A stretch of 58,671 nucleotides of DNA from Thermostichus vulcanus str. 'Rupite' (GCF_022848905.1 NZ_JAFIRA010000022.1:1-58671); one strand, 5' to 3'; positions 8,419 through 54,994 are shown, numbered from the stretch's first letter. Program-made: numbers and translations. The notes: a model not told the origin generated them from the letters alone.

Positions 8419-9453
8419 ATGCAAACCTACGACAATCCGCAGGTCACCTATGAGTGGTACGCGGGCAACGCTCGTTTCGCCAATTTATCGGGTCTGTTCA
8501 TTGCTGCTCATGTGGCTCAAGCTGCTCTGACCACCCTTTGGGCTGGGGCTTTTACCCTGTTTGAGATCTCTCGCTTCAATCCCGAACTGCCGATGGGAGA
8601 GCAGGGGTTGATTCTGCTGCCCCATTTGGCCACGTTAGGCTTTGGGGTTGGTGAAGGGGGGCAGATCCTGGATACCTATCCCTATTTCGTCATTGGGGTG
8701 TTGCACCTGATCTCCAGTGCTGTTTTGGGGGCAGGTGCCCTCTTTCACACCATCAAAGGGCCGGAAAACCTCAAAGACGCCGAGGGCAGAGCCAGACGGT
8801 TCCATTTTGAATGGGATGACCCAGCTCAGTTGGGCATGATTCTGGGCCATCATTTGTTGTTTCTCGGGGCCGGTGCTTTGTTATTGGTGGGCAAAGCCAT
8901 GTACTGGGGCGGATTGTACGACTCAACTCAGCAGGTGGTTCGAACCGTCGCCCCCACCTTGGATCCCTGGGTGATCTATGGTTATCAAACCCACTTCGCC
9001 AGCATCACCCGTTTGGAAGACTTGGTGGGGGGCCATCTCTTTGTCGGGATCCTGCTGTTGGCGGGCGGCATTTGGCATATTCTCACCCCTCCTCTTCCCT
9101 GGGCCAAGCGGGTGTTGATCTTCTCGGGTGAAGCGATTTTGTCTTATGCCTTGGGAGGCATTGCCCTGGCCGGATTTGTTGCTGCCTACTTTTGCGCCGT
9201 CAATACCCTGGCCTACCCGCCGGAATTTTATGGCCCTCCTCTGACGGTGAAGCTGGGCATTGCACCCTATTTTGCGGACACGATTAAGCTGCCCCTGGGG
9301 GCTCATACCGCCCGTGCTTGGTTGGCCAATGCTCATTTTTTCCTGGCTTTCTTCTTCTTGCAAGGGCATTTGTGGCATGCGTTGCGAGCCATGGGTTTCG
9401 ACTTCAAACGAGTGGAGCGAGCGTTAAATGCAGCAGGGTCAGCTTCCTCTTGA
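8419..9453 (+). CDS. isiA: Iron-stress chlorophyll-binding protein IsiA (CP43')
   Basis: IsiA is a six-helix chlorophyll a antenna of the CP43/Pcb family. It forms rings around photosystem I and dissipates energy when iron is scarce. The 344-residue product starts [25 protein letters not shown] and has alternating hydrophobic helices with the His residues that ligate chlorophyll (for example in [35 protein letters not shown] and [10 protein letters not shown]). It lacks the large lumenal loop E of true CP43, which separates it from PsbC, and its length is normal for IsiA. TTAGGAGTTGTTACC before the ATG supplies a good ribosome site. It is followed by a terminator-like hairpin and then an isiC-like gene; the flavodoxin gene isiB, often next, is absent here. 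Confidence 0.93.
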
Positions 9454-50791: not shown

Positions 50792-51625
50792 ACCACCCAC
50801 GCGTGAATGTCTCGTGAATGTCCACTGACAAGGGATCCGTTGTCGGCTTCCTCATTCCTAGAAATCTGTGCGGAAAAATGGGTTGACGGGATCCCATCCC
50901 AGGATTATCCTAAACAAGGCTGAGGAGATTCTTTAGTGAGTCTGCCGGCTTTGTATTGGTAAAAGCTCTTTCGAGGAAAACGATCAACAATGGACACTTC
51001 TGGTAGTAGTCCTTGCGCTACGGAACAGGAATTTGTCCTTTCGGATGAAGACCCTGACGGGCCATTTGCTGGCCTAGTCTGCCCTAATTCTAGCTGGGGG
51101 CATTGGGTGATCGGGTTAATGAGCTTGCTAAGTTAGTTTTTGGCTTGGGGAGTTCATCTCGGTCAGCAATGAACCTAGCGACTGAGCAAAGCTCCCCCAG
51201 GGACTTCCCTGTACGGGTTGTGTATGAAGGCCGAGCGGCCTGACTCTGTTCAGAATTGGGGCGACTTTGGGTGTTGTGGAGGAGAAGTTTTCTCTATCTG
51301 CGCACCTTGTTTGTTTTGGTACAAGCCATGAGGGGATCCCGTGGGATCACCAGTTACTGGTTTGTTCGCTTTCAACCCCACCCCTAGCCTTTCTGCGCAT
51401 CTTTATCTGCGTTGGCCCTCCCTGTTGTGGGGTCTGCCAGCGACCCATTTTTGCGTGAAGATTGCCGTTCATCTTGGCAGTCTTCGGCTTCTTTTCGTCT
51501 TTTTCACCTCAATCTTCAGCCAAAGTATAGGGCTCCATTCTGTTCGCCGTTACCCGGCGAGAGATCGTTTTTGTGAAAGGACAAACCCATTCATCCTAAC
51601 CCGAACAACCCATTGGAGGTACATC
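50792..51625. other. Long structured 834-bp leader region upstream of mgtE
   Basis: No credible gene is present between the ftsW stop and the mgtE ATG. The segment has several potential stems: GGCC-ATTTGCT-GGCC around 51062-51076 flanked by complementary GAC/GTC; GTTCAT/ATGAAC at 51151-51173; GGGGAG/CTCCCC at 51147-51196; and GGCC-GAGC-GGCC near 51229-51240. The sequence does not match the M-box (ykoK) Mg2+ riboswitch as I remember it. A noncoding RNA or a long 5' UTR are both open. Reading frames at 51267-51458 and upstream of 51626 look random. Confidence 0.4.
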
Positions 51626-53005
51626 ATGCGGCAAAACATTCTTCGGGATCTGCTCAATCCCATCTCTCTAGAGGCGGCCAAGCGGGAAGCCAACAGTGCT
51701 CCTATTGCTGAGCTGGTGCAACAACTGATGGAAATTTCCCCTCGGCAGCGAGTATTGGCCTTTCGGCTCTTGGAAAAGGACAAAGCCATTGCTGTGTTCG
51801 AATATCTGCGGGCCGAGGAGCAGGCGGATTTGATCCGTACCATGGAAAATCCGGAGGTGATCCGGCTGCTCGAAGCGCTTCCCCCGGACCGGCGGGTACG
51901 CCTGTTTGAGGAGTTGCCGGCCAAAGTGACCAAGCGATTGATCGCCAACCTCAGCCCCGCGGCCCGAGAAGCAGTCAACATCCTCTTGGGCTACCCAGAA
52001 CGCAGTGCCGGTCGCTTGATGAACTTGCGCTACTTAGCGGTACGCGACAACATCACGGTCGGAGCAGCGCTGGCCAGTGTGCGGGACTCGCAACTGGGGG
52101 ATGACGAGCTGGATGTGATCTTCGTGGTGGATGACCAACGCTTCTACCGGGGCTTGGTACGGACGGTGCGGCTGGTCAAAGTGGATCCTGACCTGCCGAT
52201 TCGCGCCCTGCTTGAGGGATCCGACTGCGTGGTGCGGGTCACGGATCGGGATCTGCAAGCGGCCAAGGTGCTCAAAGATCATGATTTGCCTGCTGTGCCC
52301 GTGGTGGATAGCGAGGGTCGTTTGGTAGGGGATATCACCTTTGACGATGTGATCGATCTGGTACAGGAGGAAGCGACAGATGCTGCCTTGGCCCAGGCAG
52401 GGGTCGGGAATCTCCTCAGTCGAGACAAAGTCTGGAGTGAGCGCTTGGTGAAGGGATCCCGTTGGTATGCGATTCGGCTGCGAATTTTGTTTCTGATCGT
52501 CACCCTAATCGGCGGCATGTTGGTGGGGGGTGTGATCGAAACCTTTGAAGAAGTCCTGGAGGCCGTCACAGCAGCCGCTATTTTCATCCCTCTGGTCATG
52601 GATATGGGCGGGAATGTCGGCACCCAATCGACCACCGTTTTTGCCCGGGGCCTGGCCTGGAACCACATCGATGTGCAGAAGTTTTTCCCCTACTTGCTCC
52701 GCGAAGGCAGCATCGGCGCCATTATGGGTGTCATTTTGGGGACGGTCGCTGGAATCATCGCCTACTTCTGGCAGGGGGCACCGAACGGGATCCCGCAGTT
52801 GGGTTTGGCCGTGGGGCTGGCTCTAGCGGTGGTGATTACCTTGGGGGCTGTCTTGGGGGCGATTCTGCCCTGGGTGATGTTGAAATTGGGCTTCGACCAC
52901 GCCCCTGGAGCGGATCCCTTCATCACCACCATCAAGGACTTCACCGGCCTCTGGGTGTATTTCATGCTGGTGGGCTGGTTGGTCGGCGTTGATGTGGAGT
53001 TCTGA
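51626..53005 (+). CDS. mgtE: Magnesium transporter MgtE
   Basis: Mg2+ channel/transporter of the inner membrane. The 459-residue product has the cytosolic MgtE N-domain (about 1-130, LPPDRRVRLFEELP), tandem CBS domains (about 135-265, DQRFYRGLVRTVRL; DHDLPAVPVVDSEGRLVGDI) and a five-helix membrane domain (about 285-459). That last domain contains GGNVGTQSTTVFARGLAW and the pore signature PLVMDMGGN. GGAGGT 5 bases before the ATG at 51626 decides the start; the open frame runs 95 codons further upstream but contains no domain. A small gene and an mgtC-like gene follow. Confidence 0.95.
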   Translation: MRQNILRDLLNPISLEAAKREANSAPIAELVQQLMEISPRQRVLAFRLLEKDKAIAVFEYLRAEEQADLIRTMENPEVIRLLEALPPDRRVRLFEELPAKVTKRLIANLSPAAREAVNILLGYPERSAGRLMNLRYLAVRDNITVGAALASVRDSQLGDDELDVIFVVDDQRFYRGLVRTVRLVKVDPDLPIRALLEGSDCVVRVTDRDLQAAKVLKDHDLPAVPVVDSEGRLVGDITFDDVIDLVQEEATDAALAQAGVGNLLSRDKVWSERLVKGSRWYAIRLRILFLIVTLIGGMLVGGVIETFEEVLEAVTAAAIFIPLVMDMGGNVGTQSTTVFARGLAWNHIDVQKFFPYLLREGSIGAIMGVILGTVAGIIAYFWQGAPNGIPQLGLAVGLALAVVITLGAVLGAILPWVMLKLGFDHAPGADPFITTIKDFTGLWVYFMLVGWLVGVDVEF

Positions 53006-53047
53006 GGGGCGTTCTGAACGGAAGTCGATGTGGTTTGTCTATCTAAG

Positions 53048-53075
53048 TTCTTAATTGTTCTTAATTTTCTTAATT
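53048..53075. repeat. Three tandem TTCTTAATT repeats
   Basis: TTCTTAATT occurs at 53048, 53058 and 53067, i.e. periods of 10 and 9 bp, in the short spacer between mgtE and the next small gene. Helical-phase direct repeats of TTAA-containing octamers resemble OmpR/PhoB-type operators; here the spacing is not the 11 bp of a classical Pho box. Confidence 0.5.
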
Positions 53076-53116
53076 GAGATGCAGTTGTTAACCCCAGAAA
53101 AATCAGGAGGTGTGCC

Positions 53117-53335
53117 ATGACCTTAAAAGCCCTATCACCCCTGGCGACAACCTACTTTCAGGCACAGCTGCGGCAGTTCGCTCAGCGGGTCAGCATAACC
53201 TGCGCTTTAGAAACGGGTGGTAAGCTAGCCCCGGAAGTGGCCTTCCGCCAGTTGGAAACCCTCTGGCAAGCCCTGGAGCAGGAGGCTGTAGCCGTAGGGA
53301 TCCCGGATGATCCTTCTGAGGAACCCTTGCCATGA
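53117..53335 (+). CDS. Small protein between mgtE and mgtC-like genes
   Basis: A 72-residue product, mostly helical (PLATTYFQAQLRQFAQRVSITCALETGGK; EVAFRQLETLWQALEQEAVAVG) with an acidic C-terminus. No membrane segment or known domain is recognised. AGGAGG lies 7 bases before the ATG, one of the best ribosome sites in the window, so the gene is probably real. The downstream mgtC-like gene starts within about 90 bp, so an operon with it is likely. Confidence 0.6.
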   Translation: MTLKALSPLATTYFQAQLRQFAQRVSITCALETGGKLAPEVAFRQLETLWQALEQEAVAVGIPDDPSEEPLP

Positions 53336-53422
53336 AGAAGAGTCCAGCTAGGGACACAGGCATTGTCAGAGGCAACCCGTATAGGAGCAGTAGTCCCACC
53401 CCTCCCTCACGAGAACACGAGC

Positions 53423-54124
53423 ATGACTTGGATGGATTTCACCTTGCGTTTGGCAGTTGCCTTTGCCCTGGGATCCGTGATTGGTCTGGAGCGGCAGTGG
53501 CGGCAGCGCATGGCGGGTTTGCGTACCAATACCCTGGTGGCAACCGGTGCAGCCCTATTTGTCATGCTCTCGGTTCTCACCCCTGATGAAGGCAGCCCGA
53601 CTCGGATTGCCGCCCAGGTGGTATCGGGTATCGGTTTCCTAGCGGGGGGAGTCATTCTTAAGGAGGGGGCCAGTGTTCGTGGGTTGAATACGGCAGCAAC
53701 CATCTGGTGTGCTGCAGCCGTGGGGGCCTTCTCGGGCTCAGGGTACATCCTGCAAGCGACGATTGGCGCTGGGGCCGTGTTGATCTCCAACATTCTCCTG
53801 CGGCCCCTGGGCTACCGTATTAACCAGCAACCCCTCAAAGGGACCGAGTTGGAGCTGGTCTATGAGTGCTCCTTTACTTGCAAAAGTCGGGAGGAAGCCC
53901 ATATCCGCGCCTTACTGCTACAGGCCCTGGCTCCCAGCCATCTAAAGTTGCGGGCACTCTACAGCGAAGACTTGGAGGAGAAACCCGATCTGGTCAAGGT
54001 GGAAGCGGAAATGGTTACCCAAACCCGCGATGATCAGTCCCTGGAAATGATCGTCAGCCGACTGAGCCTAGAACCGGGAGTGATCGCCGCCAGTTGGCGC
54101 ATTATCGAACAGGAGTTTGGCTAG
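53423..54124 (+). CDS. MgtC/SapB-family membrane protein
   Basis: A 233-residue protein has the MgtC N-terminal membrane domain (about 1-130: LRLAVAFALGSVIGLERQWR, MAGLRTNTLVATGAALFVML, RIAAQVVSGIGFLAGGVILKEG, RGLNTAATIWCAAAVG) and a C-terminal ACT-like domain (about 140-233) as in full-length MgtC. MgtC proteins are linked to low-Mg2+ adaptation and modulation of ATP synthase or phosphate uptake in other bacteria. The frame begins with a TTG at 53363; the ATG at 53423 is preferred because it puts the first helix at the usual distance. Confidence 0.9.
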   Translation: MTWMDFTLRLAVAFALGSVIGLERQWRQRMAGLRTNTLVATGAALFVMLSVLTPDEGSPTRIAAQVVSGIGFLAGGVILKEGASVRGLNTAATIWCAAAVGAFSGSGYILQATIGAGAVLISNILLRPLGYRINQQPLKGTELELVYECSFTCKSREEAHIRALLLQALAPSHLKLRALYSEDLEEKPDLVKVEAEMVTQTRDDQSLEMIVSRLSLEPGVIAASWRIIEQEFG

Positions 54125-54148
54125 GGTGGGATCCTTGAGCTATTTGAG

Positions 54149-54772
54149 CTAACTGAGTAGCTCCCAGCCGGTGAGCAGGGCAAACCCCAGGAACAGGGAT
54201 CCGCCCATCCAATGGACTGCCCGTTCAGAAATGTGATTTGCCAAAAATCGACCTCCCACTACAGCCAATGCCACCATCAACCCATGCCCAATCGTCGCCC
54301 CTGCCAACACACTGAGACCAGGGTGTGCCGCCGCCAGAGAAAGCGTAGCCACTTGGGTCTTATCTCCTAGCTCCGCCACAGCCGTCAGGGTAAACGCTTC
54401 GGAAACAATCGCCCAAGCCCCCCCTCGACCCGCCCCTTTTTCTTCCGCTTGCTCCACAAGCTTGAGTGCTTCCTCCTCCTCTTCCATTTCCTGCTGGGGA
54501 CTCATTTTGTAAGCTTGCCAGAGCATTTTCAGTCCAAAAGCGACAAATACCCCCGTTGCAAGAATCTGTACCCAAACTGCCGGGAACAGGCTGAACAGCA
54601 ACTGGCCCACCGCCACCGCCAGCACCGTCATCATGGCTAAAGCTGCCCATGCCCCCAGAAAAACCCAACGGCGGGGATGTCGCATGGCCAAAATCAGAGG
54701 GGTAAAAAAAGTCTTATCCCCAAACTCCGCTACCGTGACCAACAAAAAACTCGACAGAAAACCTGCCCACAT
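54149..54772 (-). CDS. TMEM165/GDT1-family Mn2+/Ca2+ exporter (Mnx-like)
   Basis: A 207-residue protein of UPF0016. Two hydrophobic repeats carry the diagnostic motifs EFGDKT (16-21) and ELGDKT (134-139), separated by an acidic cytosolic loop (EMEEEEEALKLVEQAEEKG). In cyanobacteria a related thylakoid/plasma-membrane protein exports Mn2+ (Mnx), and plant homologues act in chloroplast Mn/Ca transport. GGAG 8 bases before the ATG supports the start. A yybP-ykoY Mn2+ riboswitch directly upstream on the same strand points to Mn2+ as the physiological ion. Confidence 0.93.
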   Translation of the reverse strand: MWAGFLSSFLLVTVAEFGDKTFFTPLILAMRHPRRWVFLGAWAALAMMTVLAVAVGQLLFSLFPAVWVQILATGVFVAFGLKMLWQAYKMSPQQEMEEEEEALKLVEQAEEKGAGRGGAWAIVSEAFTLTAVAELGDKTQVATLSLAAAHPGLSVLAGATIGHGLMVALAVVGGRFLANHISERAVHWMGGSLFLGFALLTGWELLS

Positions 54773-54809
54773 CTTTGTATCTCCAACCTCTCTTGCCTGT
54801 GCAGAATGG

Positions 54810-54874
54810 GTTCACGCATCAGGGCAAGGGCCGGAGAAGTCTGACAGACTCACCAAGCTCACTCCTGCGTGAAC
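54810..54874 (-). promoter_or_regulatory. Expression platform of the Mn2+ riboswitch (candidate)
   Basis: On the minus strand GTTCACGCA (54866-54874) and TGCGTGAAC (54810-54818) are perfect 9-bp complements enclosing about 47 bases, with an inner GTCTGTCAGAC stem. This long stem begins right after the aptamer P1 helix and ends 37 bases before the ATG. It could be an antiterminator/terminator alternative or a sequestering helix; no T-run follows, so translational or Rho-type control is more likely. Confidence 0.4.
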
Positions 54875-54875
54875 T

Positions 54876-54994
54876 TAGTGAAAGTCTCGTCACCAGAACG
54901 CCAAACTCAGTGGGTTCTGTCTTCTGCACCGGGCCATTGAAGCCAGTATGTCGATGCAGAGTGCGGCAAACCGCCCGACTACTCCCTTTCAGGA
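54876..54994 (-). promoter_or_regulatory. yybP-ykoY Mn2+ riboswitch
   Basis: The minus strand shows the conserved core. It has AAAGGGAGTAGT (54978-54989) followed by a stem-rich segment, then TCGACATACTGG, and finally GGTGACGAGACTTTCACT (about 54878-54894). The closing helix P1 pairs TGAAAG (54986-54991) with CTTTCA (54879-54884). Elements GGGGAGUAG, GUCAACAUACU and GAGACYUU are hallmarks of the yybP-ykoY family, a Mn2+ sensor found before Mn exporters including TMEM165/GDT1 genes. Its position upstream of the exporter gene fits. Ion binding itself is untested here. Confidence 0.88.

Follow-up and report, generated by a model that had tools for sequence, protein, structure and literature searches.

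We analysed a 58,671-nucleotide (nt) stretch from the hot-spring-type cyanobacterium Thermostichus vulcanus str. 'Rupite' (NZ_JAFIRA010000022.1:1-58671; hereafter the window), which belongs to the same genus as the relatives G001-G005, and in it a group of divalent-cation transport genes together with the leader RNAs that precede them. The plus strand carries mgtE, encoding an Mg2+ channel of 459 amino acids (aa; 51626..53005), the gene of a divergent 72-aa DUF7219 protein (53117..53335) and mgtC, of the long type with a C-terminal domain (233 aa; 53423..54124). The minus strand carries the gene of a 207-aa divalent cation/proton antiporter of the GDT1 family (Mnx/PAM71 type; 54149..54772), preceded on that strand by an expression platform (54773..54878) and a Mn2+ riboswitch aptamer (54879..54991). 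Domain matches confirmed the four genes and their order as given in a sequence-only reading of the same DNA, which had also taken them for a single cluster; GDT1 and its riboswitch lie on the opposite strand. The mgtC and GDT1 genes converge, their stop codons separated by 24 bases, and GDT1 is thus outside the mgtE operon; co-transcription of GDT1 with the mgt genes is ruled out by the opposite strands. The locus is therefore two convergent transcription units, mgtE-DUF7219-mgtC (+) and GDT1 with its Mn2+ riboswitch (-). The adjacent four-gene cluster is ordinary, and the main new result is the magnesium leader upstream of it, a conserved element absent from the earlier reading that consists of a short leader open reading frame (uORF) and a hairpin ahead of mgtE.

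In the window, the uORF has 48 codons (50990..51136, +; MDTSGSSPCATEQEFVLSDEDPDGPFAGLVCPNSSWGHWVIGLMSLLS and a stop codon), is preceded by GAGG and contains an acidic/proline cluster, SDEDPDGP, in which DEDPDGP occupies codons 19-25. The hairpin (GGGGAGUUCAUCUCGGUC...CUCCCC; 51147..51197, +; predicted -24.4 kcal/mol) directly follows the uORF, 430 nt upstream of mgtE, and its position and GTTCATCTC-GGTC core are conserved. Further upstream, a promoter-like site (TTGACG, 17 nt, TATCCT; 50883..50911, +), identified by consensus match only (1 found vs 0.4 expected), is a possible leader promoter.

Among 386 cyanobacterial genomes, a profile of the uORF matched nine, in each directly upstream of mgtE or of an Mg2+ P-type ATPase gene, with one match in the genome of the window (67.3 bits). 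The same picture emerged from the genomic contexts of long-type mgtC at 50 distinct cyanobacterial loci, the window excluded: the leader was present in 18 of the 21 loci with a transporter gene (in one of the 18, L105, it lies at the end of the contig, past the ATPase gene), and two of the remaining three are on contigs that are too short to show it. It precedes mgtE in G003, G056, Arthrospira, Thermosynechococcus, Nodosilinea, Petrachloros, G104, G157 and G054, and the Mg2+ ATPase gene in G023, HOT.MB2.61, a metagenome-assembled Oscillatoriaceae genome, G216, G287 and G366. The uORFs span 22-57 codons and share the consensus MExSGSSSxxxTxQExxxSDEDPxP; an acidic/proline cluster at residues 15-32 was found in 15 of 23 uORFs vs 1.4% of 828 longer ORFs. 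The peptide itself is conserved, the proportion of nonsynonymous differences (pN) being below that of synonymous ones (pS) in most pairs compared, including distant ones (pN/pS 0.11/0.43, 0.23/0.45 and 0.29/0.62).

The hairpin showed the same association. All matches of its model (R2) at 33 bits or more in the 386 genomes, plus those in G029 and G115, precede mgtE or the Mg2+ ATPase gene; 93% of the alignment cells pair, 8 of 19 pairs have changed on both sides, and the two arms (segments 2 and 3) pair better with their own than with a foreign partner in 19 of 20 comparisons (p = 3e-6). In G054, the 3' arm contains the Shine-Dalgarno sequence of mgtE and ends at its start codon, and many leaders would allow the last part of the uORF (segment 1, GAUGAAC..GCCC) to base-pair with the 5' arm (1:2). 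What is conserved, then, is a leader element made of a uORF and a hairpin, and it is specific to genes of Mg2+ transporters, which belong to two unrelated classes. The element seems not to have been described before: apart from a chance-level mir-4018 match, no Rfam family matched the mgtE leader, and the literature searched contained no account of it. Two other candidate features of this region were discarded, a GUUCAU/AUGAAC pseudoknot in the mgtE leader of the window, whose pairing the relatives do not keep, and a conserved intrinsic terminator downstream of the hairpin and ahead of the gene, since the terminator-like hairpins there vary in position and are absent from some leaders. At locus L099, a cobalamin-riboswitch-like match (2312-2455, -; adenosylcobalamin model 42.9 bits, just under the cut-off of 50) lies on the strand opposite to the mgt leader and upstream of it.

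The genes downstream of the leader were identified by domain matches. MgtE scored 320.7 bits against the TIGR00400 equivalog (cut-off 232.75), and three of the Mg2+ P-type ATPases of the relatives, those tested, scored 1274-1342 bits against TIGR01524 (cut-off 611). MgtC matched both PF02308 and the C-terminal PF21770 and reached 204.9 bits with the NCBIfam equivalog PRK15385, below its cut-off of 255; its gene, open from 53363, probably starts at 53423, as judged from comparison with 233-aa homologues. The sequence-only reading had called the 72-aa protein an unknown candidate partner. A partnership with Mg2+ transport is plausible, but the protein is no orphan, matching Pfam DUF7219 (PF23856) at 60.6 bits (gathering score 27). 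AlphaFold2 predicted a two-helix hairpin (helices 8-33 and 39-59; predicted local distance difference test score 84.6). Within 4 kilobases (kb) of the 50 long-mgtC loci we found mgtE in 17, an Mg2+ P-type ATPase gene in 4, DUF7219 in 13, always at less than 1.5 kb from mgtC, and GDT1 in 5. DUF7219 has about two copies per genome, and its proximity to mgtC is far above chance and occurs in several gene orders: between mgtE and mgtC in Thermostichus, G056 and Arthrospira, ahead of mgtE in Thermosynechococcus, and between the ATPase gene and mgtC at two loci. We infer that DUF7219 is a small helical accessory of a module made of MgtE or MgtA/B plus MgtC; the literature searched does not mention the family.

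The mgtE-mgtC pair is old and widespread. The two genes also adjoin in Actinomycetota, Gemmatimonadota and Bacteroidota (L179, L184, L186, L187, L189, L201, L202, L206, L216, L218, L220, L221, L224 and L228), among others. Homologous proteins of 443-461 aa (AGKALRQ...GDCHLLNFGGFATPERN) adjoin mgtC at five loci (L149 195-1526, -; L156 3471-4847, -; L171 3077-4456, -; L172 3134-4519, -; L176 5689-7050, +).

The composition of the leader recalls two enterobacterial systems. In E. coli mgtL, an EPDP motif destabilises ribosomes (PMC11282234), and in Salmonella mgtQ, Asp/Glu codons change RNA pairing, freeing the ribosome-binding site of mgtB (PMC8092293). With mgtL, the cyanobacterial leader shares a short acidic/proline leader ORF ahead of an Mg2+ transporter gene (mgtA in E. 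coli), and, as expected of mgtL/mgtQ-type leaders, the acidic/proline cluster of the window falls among roughly the first 30 codons; however, the sequences are unrelated, the motif lies at codons 2-5 in mgtL and near codons 19-25 here, a conserved hairpin follows the uORF, and mgtE, too, is predicted to be controlled. With mgtQ it shares Asp/Glu codons in the uORF and a hairpin that may hold a ribosome-binding site and for which an alternative pairing is possible, whereas mgtQ is an 8-codon ORF between mgtC and mgtB, with no sequence relation to the 22-57 codons that here precede the whole operon. As in Salmonella mgtCB, mgtC stands beside an Mg2+ importer gene, which in some cyanobacteria also encodes a P-type ATPase; the importer of the window is instead an MgtE channel, with DUF7219 in between. 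The Thioalkalivibrio mgtE motif (SRC-65-1), compared by description only, is likewise an mgtE leader RNA, one that has a stem containing the start region, but it belongs to another lineage, is larger and has no described uORF.

By analogy with mgtL and mgtQ, the leader may sense Mg2+ through translation of its uORF. With ample Mg2+, ribosomes would complete the uORF, the hairpin (segments 2:3) would form and expression would stay low; when Mg2+ is low, ribosomes would be destabilised on the acidic codons, and the end of the uORF would pair with the 5' arm of the hairpin (1:2), freeing the 3' arm so that the transporter is expressed. The Rho-dependent route of mgtL is unlikely here, since the best match to a Rho gene in the genome of the window reached 39 bits against a cut-off of 509. 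Our proposal, to which we give an even chance, is that cyanobacteria sense Mg2+ with a nascent peptide of their own: an acidic/proline leader peptide would act together with a hairpin to turn on MgtE or an Mg2+ P-type ATPase, often with DUF7219 and MgtC. This sensor would have an origin independent of the enterobacterial mgtL/mgtQ, and it would operate in a genome where no Rho gene is recognisable.

Two other explanations of the leader were weighed. The hairpin might bind Mg2+ directly, as a riboswitch like the M-box, with the uORF a mere companion or structural spacer. The hairpin is indeed the best-conserved RNA part, a CUGGGCA loop is kept in many leaders, and riboswitches are known in other Mg2+ transporter leaders, with an unrelated mgtE candidate in Thioalkalivibrio (PMC11109978). 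We nonetheless consider direct binding unlikely: the uORF shows conservation at the peptide level (pN < pS), its profile finds it even where the hairpin has diverged (as in the window and G283), and the hairpin is small, lacks a complex fold and has lost the loop in Thermostichus. Ranked after it, and also improbable, is a uORF that senses another state (charging of Ser, Pro or Gly tRNA, ATP, or translation rate) and tunes Mg2+ uptake to it, on the pattern of Salmonella mgtM/mgtP, which respond to ATP and charged tRNA-Pro (PMC8092293). The conserved Gly-Ser-Ser-Ser/Cys run with which the uORF opens and its Pro codons would suit such a sensor, but Ser and Gly codons are few for classic attenuation and the acidic cluster is the most distinctive feature.

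Beside this leader, the second unit carries a riboswitch of its own. That a Mn2+ riboswitch stands ahead of GDT1, as the earlier reading had claimed, was borne out by a cyanobacterial model, covariation and gene context across the phylum. The yybP-ykoY family model (RF00080) matched at 54826-54986 with 24.6 bits (E 6.6e-4), below the gathering score of 45 and therefore unlisted at the default threshold, and this was its only match in the whole genome. No cyanobacterial relative reached the gathering score either, so that the cyanobacterial form is poorly covered by RF00080. An alignment of 18 relatives showed invariant GGGAGUA (L1, GGGGAGUAG) and ACAUACU (L3) loops, pairing in 95.9% of cells, and changes on both sides in 18 of 28 pairs, vs 11.4 in shuffles (none of 500 shuffles equalled it). 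With the cyanobacterial model built for it (R1), the aptamer of the window scored 97.7 bits, and matches were found in 64 of the 386 genomes, nearly always in single copy; a GDT1 ORF of about 206 aa lay directly downstream, on the same strand, in all 30 loci of the phylum checked. The likeness to yybP-ykoY thus comprises the two loops, covarying P1, P3 and P4 and a position upstream of a Mn2+ exporter gene, and the difference comprises the sub-gathering score, a lineage-specific P5 and a platform that sequesters the Shine-Dalgarno sequence. The riboswitch in the GDT1 leader is real, and Mn2+ is its predicted ligand. The yybP-ykoY riboswitch has been reported at 328 of 333 bacterial UPF0016 genes (PMC7380456). 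In G001, GDT1 is present twice, at a distance of about 28 kb, and both copies have a Mn2+ riboswitch of their own (L091 10140-10981; L092 7716-8569). In another class of the phylum, a weak Mn2+-riboswitch-like match at L261 lies ahead of a TerC-like gene, and such matches at L262 and L263 lie ahead of genes resembling cation exchangers.

The GDT1 protein contains two PF01169 stretches (148.5 bits), with ExGDKT motifs at residues 16 and 134, and is, from its sequence, a putative Mnx-type Mn2+ exporter. Mnx (SynPAM71) of Synechocystis, of the GDT1/UPF0016 family, is likewise encoded by one ORF of about 206 aa with two ExGDKT motifs; the GDT1 leader of the window differs in carrying the riboswitch. 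A second GDT1 locus, with two half-size ORFs (Hmx1/Hmx2 type) and without a riboswitch, lies at G000:C18 38043-38667 (-; L118).

Comparison of 52 leaders suggested how this riboswitch might act. In 51 of the 52, the P5 hairpin downstream of the aptamer takes up the P1 3' strand, which sets P5 and P1 in competition. Of 51 leaders, 48 have the Shine-Dalgarno hexamer in a helix; its opposing strand pairs better with its own Shine-Dalgarno sequence than with a foreign one (37 of 40, p = 2e-8), and the 3' arm of P5 can pair with that opposing strand in 27 of 40 (p = 1.7e-4). In the model drawn from these pairings, Mn2+ would stabilise P1 and break P5, and the freed 3' arm of P5 would pair with the anti-Shine-Dalgarno strand, turning GDT1 translation ON. 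For Thermostichus, where this third helix is weak, we infer the final step. Switching at equilibrium by forced P1 was rejected, being absent in most leaders.

We consider it moderately probable that the locus comprises two side-by-side units controlled independently, one by an Mg2+-sensing uORF leader and the other by a Mn2+ riboswitch with a translational platform. Several observations weigh against this reading. On the magnesium side, the leaders of L091, L101, L275 and L278 lack the acidic cluster; some of the loci matched by the uORF and hairpin models had gone into building those models, so that their specificity (the lack of matches elsewhere) is the informative part; and the alternative 1:2 pairing was unsupported in the own-versus-foreign comparison (p = 0.31). 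Moreover, model R2 misses the hairpin of the window itself, which is too divergent, and whose probable homology rests on the uORF, its position and the short core; and in most genomes the hairpin lies 300-700 nt ahead of the gene. On the manganese side, forcing P1 in silico clearly raised predicted Shine-Dalgarno accessibility in only 3 of the 52 leaders, the one in the window not among them. The Synechocystis mnx transcript is reported not to respond to Mn excess (PMC11649195), which fits translational control and is no proof of it.

The sequence-only reading had gone further and suggested that the four genes form one cluster for Mg/Mn cross-talk. They are indeed adjacent in the window, G001, G004 and G005, and Nodosilinea has all four, with the riboswitch. 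However, the genes lie on opposite strands and each module has its own leader, most genomes with the GDT1 riboswitch lack long-type mgtC, and GDT1 stands next to mgtC at 5 of the 50 loci only, four of the same genus plus Nodosilinea. With the window, the genus thus accounts for five genomes (the window, G001, G003, G004 and G005), so that the adjacency is kept within the genus, and the only case elsewhere is arranged differently: in Nodosilinea sp. P-1105 (L151 3896-5094) the riboswitch-bearing GDT1 interrupts the operon between mgtE and mgtC, with a DUF7219 remnant on its mgtC side, which looks like the result of an insertion. In G003 (L098, L094), the gene order is split exactly between DUF7219 and mgtC, and identity to the window is 72% for mgtE and 94% for mgtC. 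We therefore regard a joint cross-talk cluster as very improbable; the evidence favours a genus-level arrangement of two independent neighbouring units.

Elsewhere in the window, at 8812-8986 (-), we observed an IsrR antisense RNA (RF01419, 90.5 bits), the regulator of isiA.

According to a 2024 study, cyanobacteria have ManSR as the only known regulator of their Mn homeostasis (PMC11649195). This gap is filled by the Mn2+ riboswitch of cyanobacteria, and copies of it may already be listed in earlier literature. Both chlorophyll and Rubisco of cyanobacteria need Mg2+. If our reading of the magnesium leader is true, it would be the first defined Mg2+ control element for cyanobacteria, and DUF7219 would gain a testable role. 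To sense Mg2+ through ribosomes that acidic nascent chains destabilise would then be a recurring strategy rather than an enterobacterial peculiarity.

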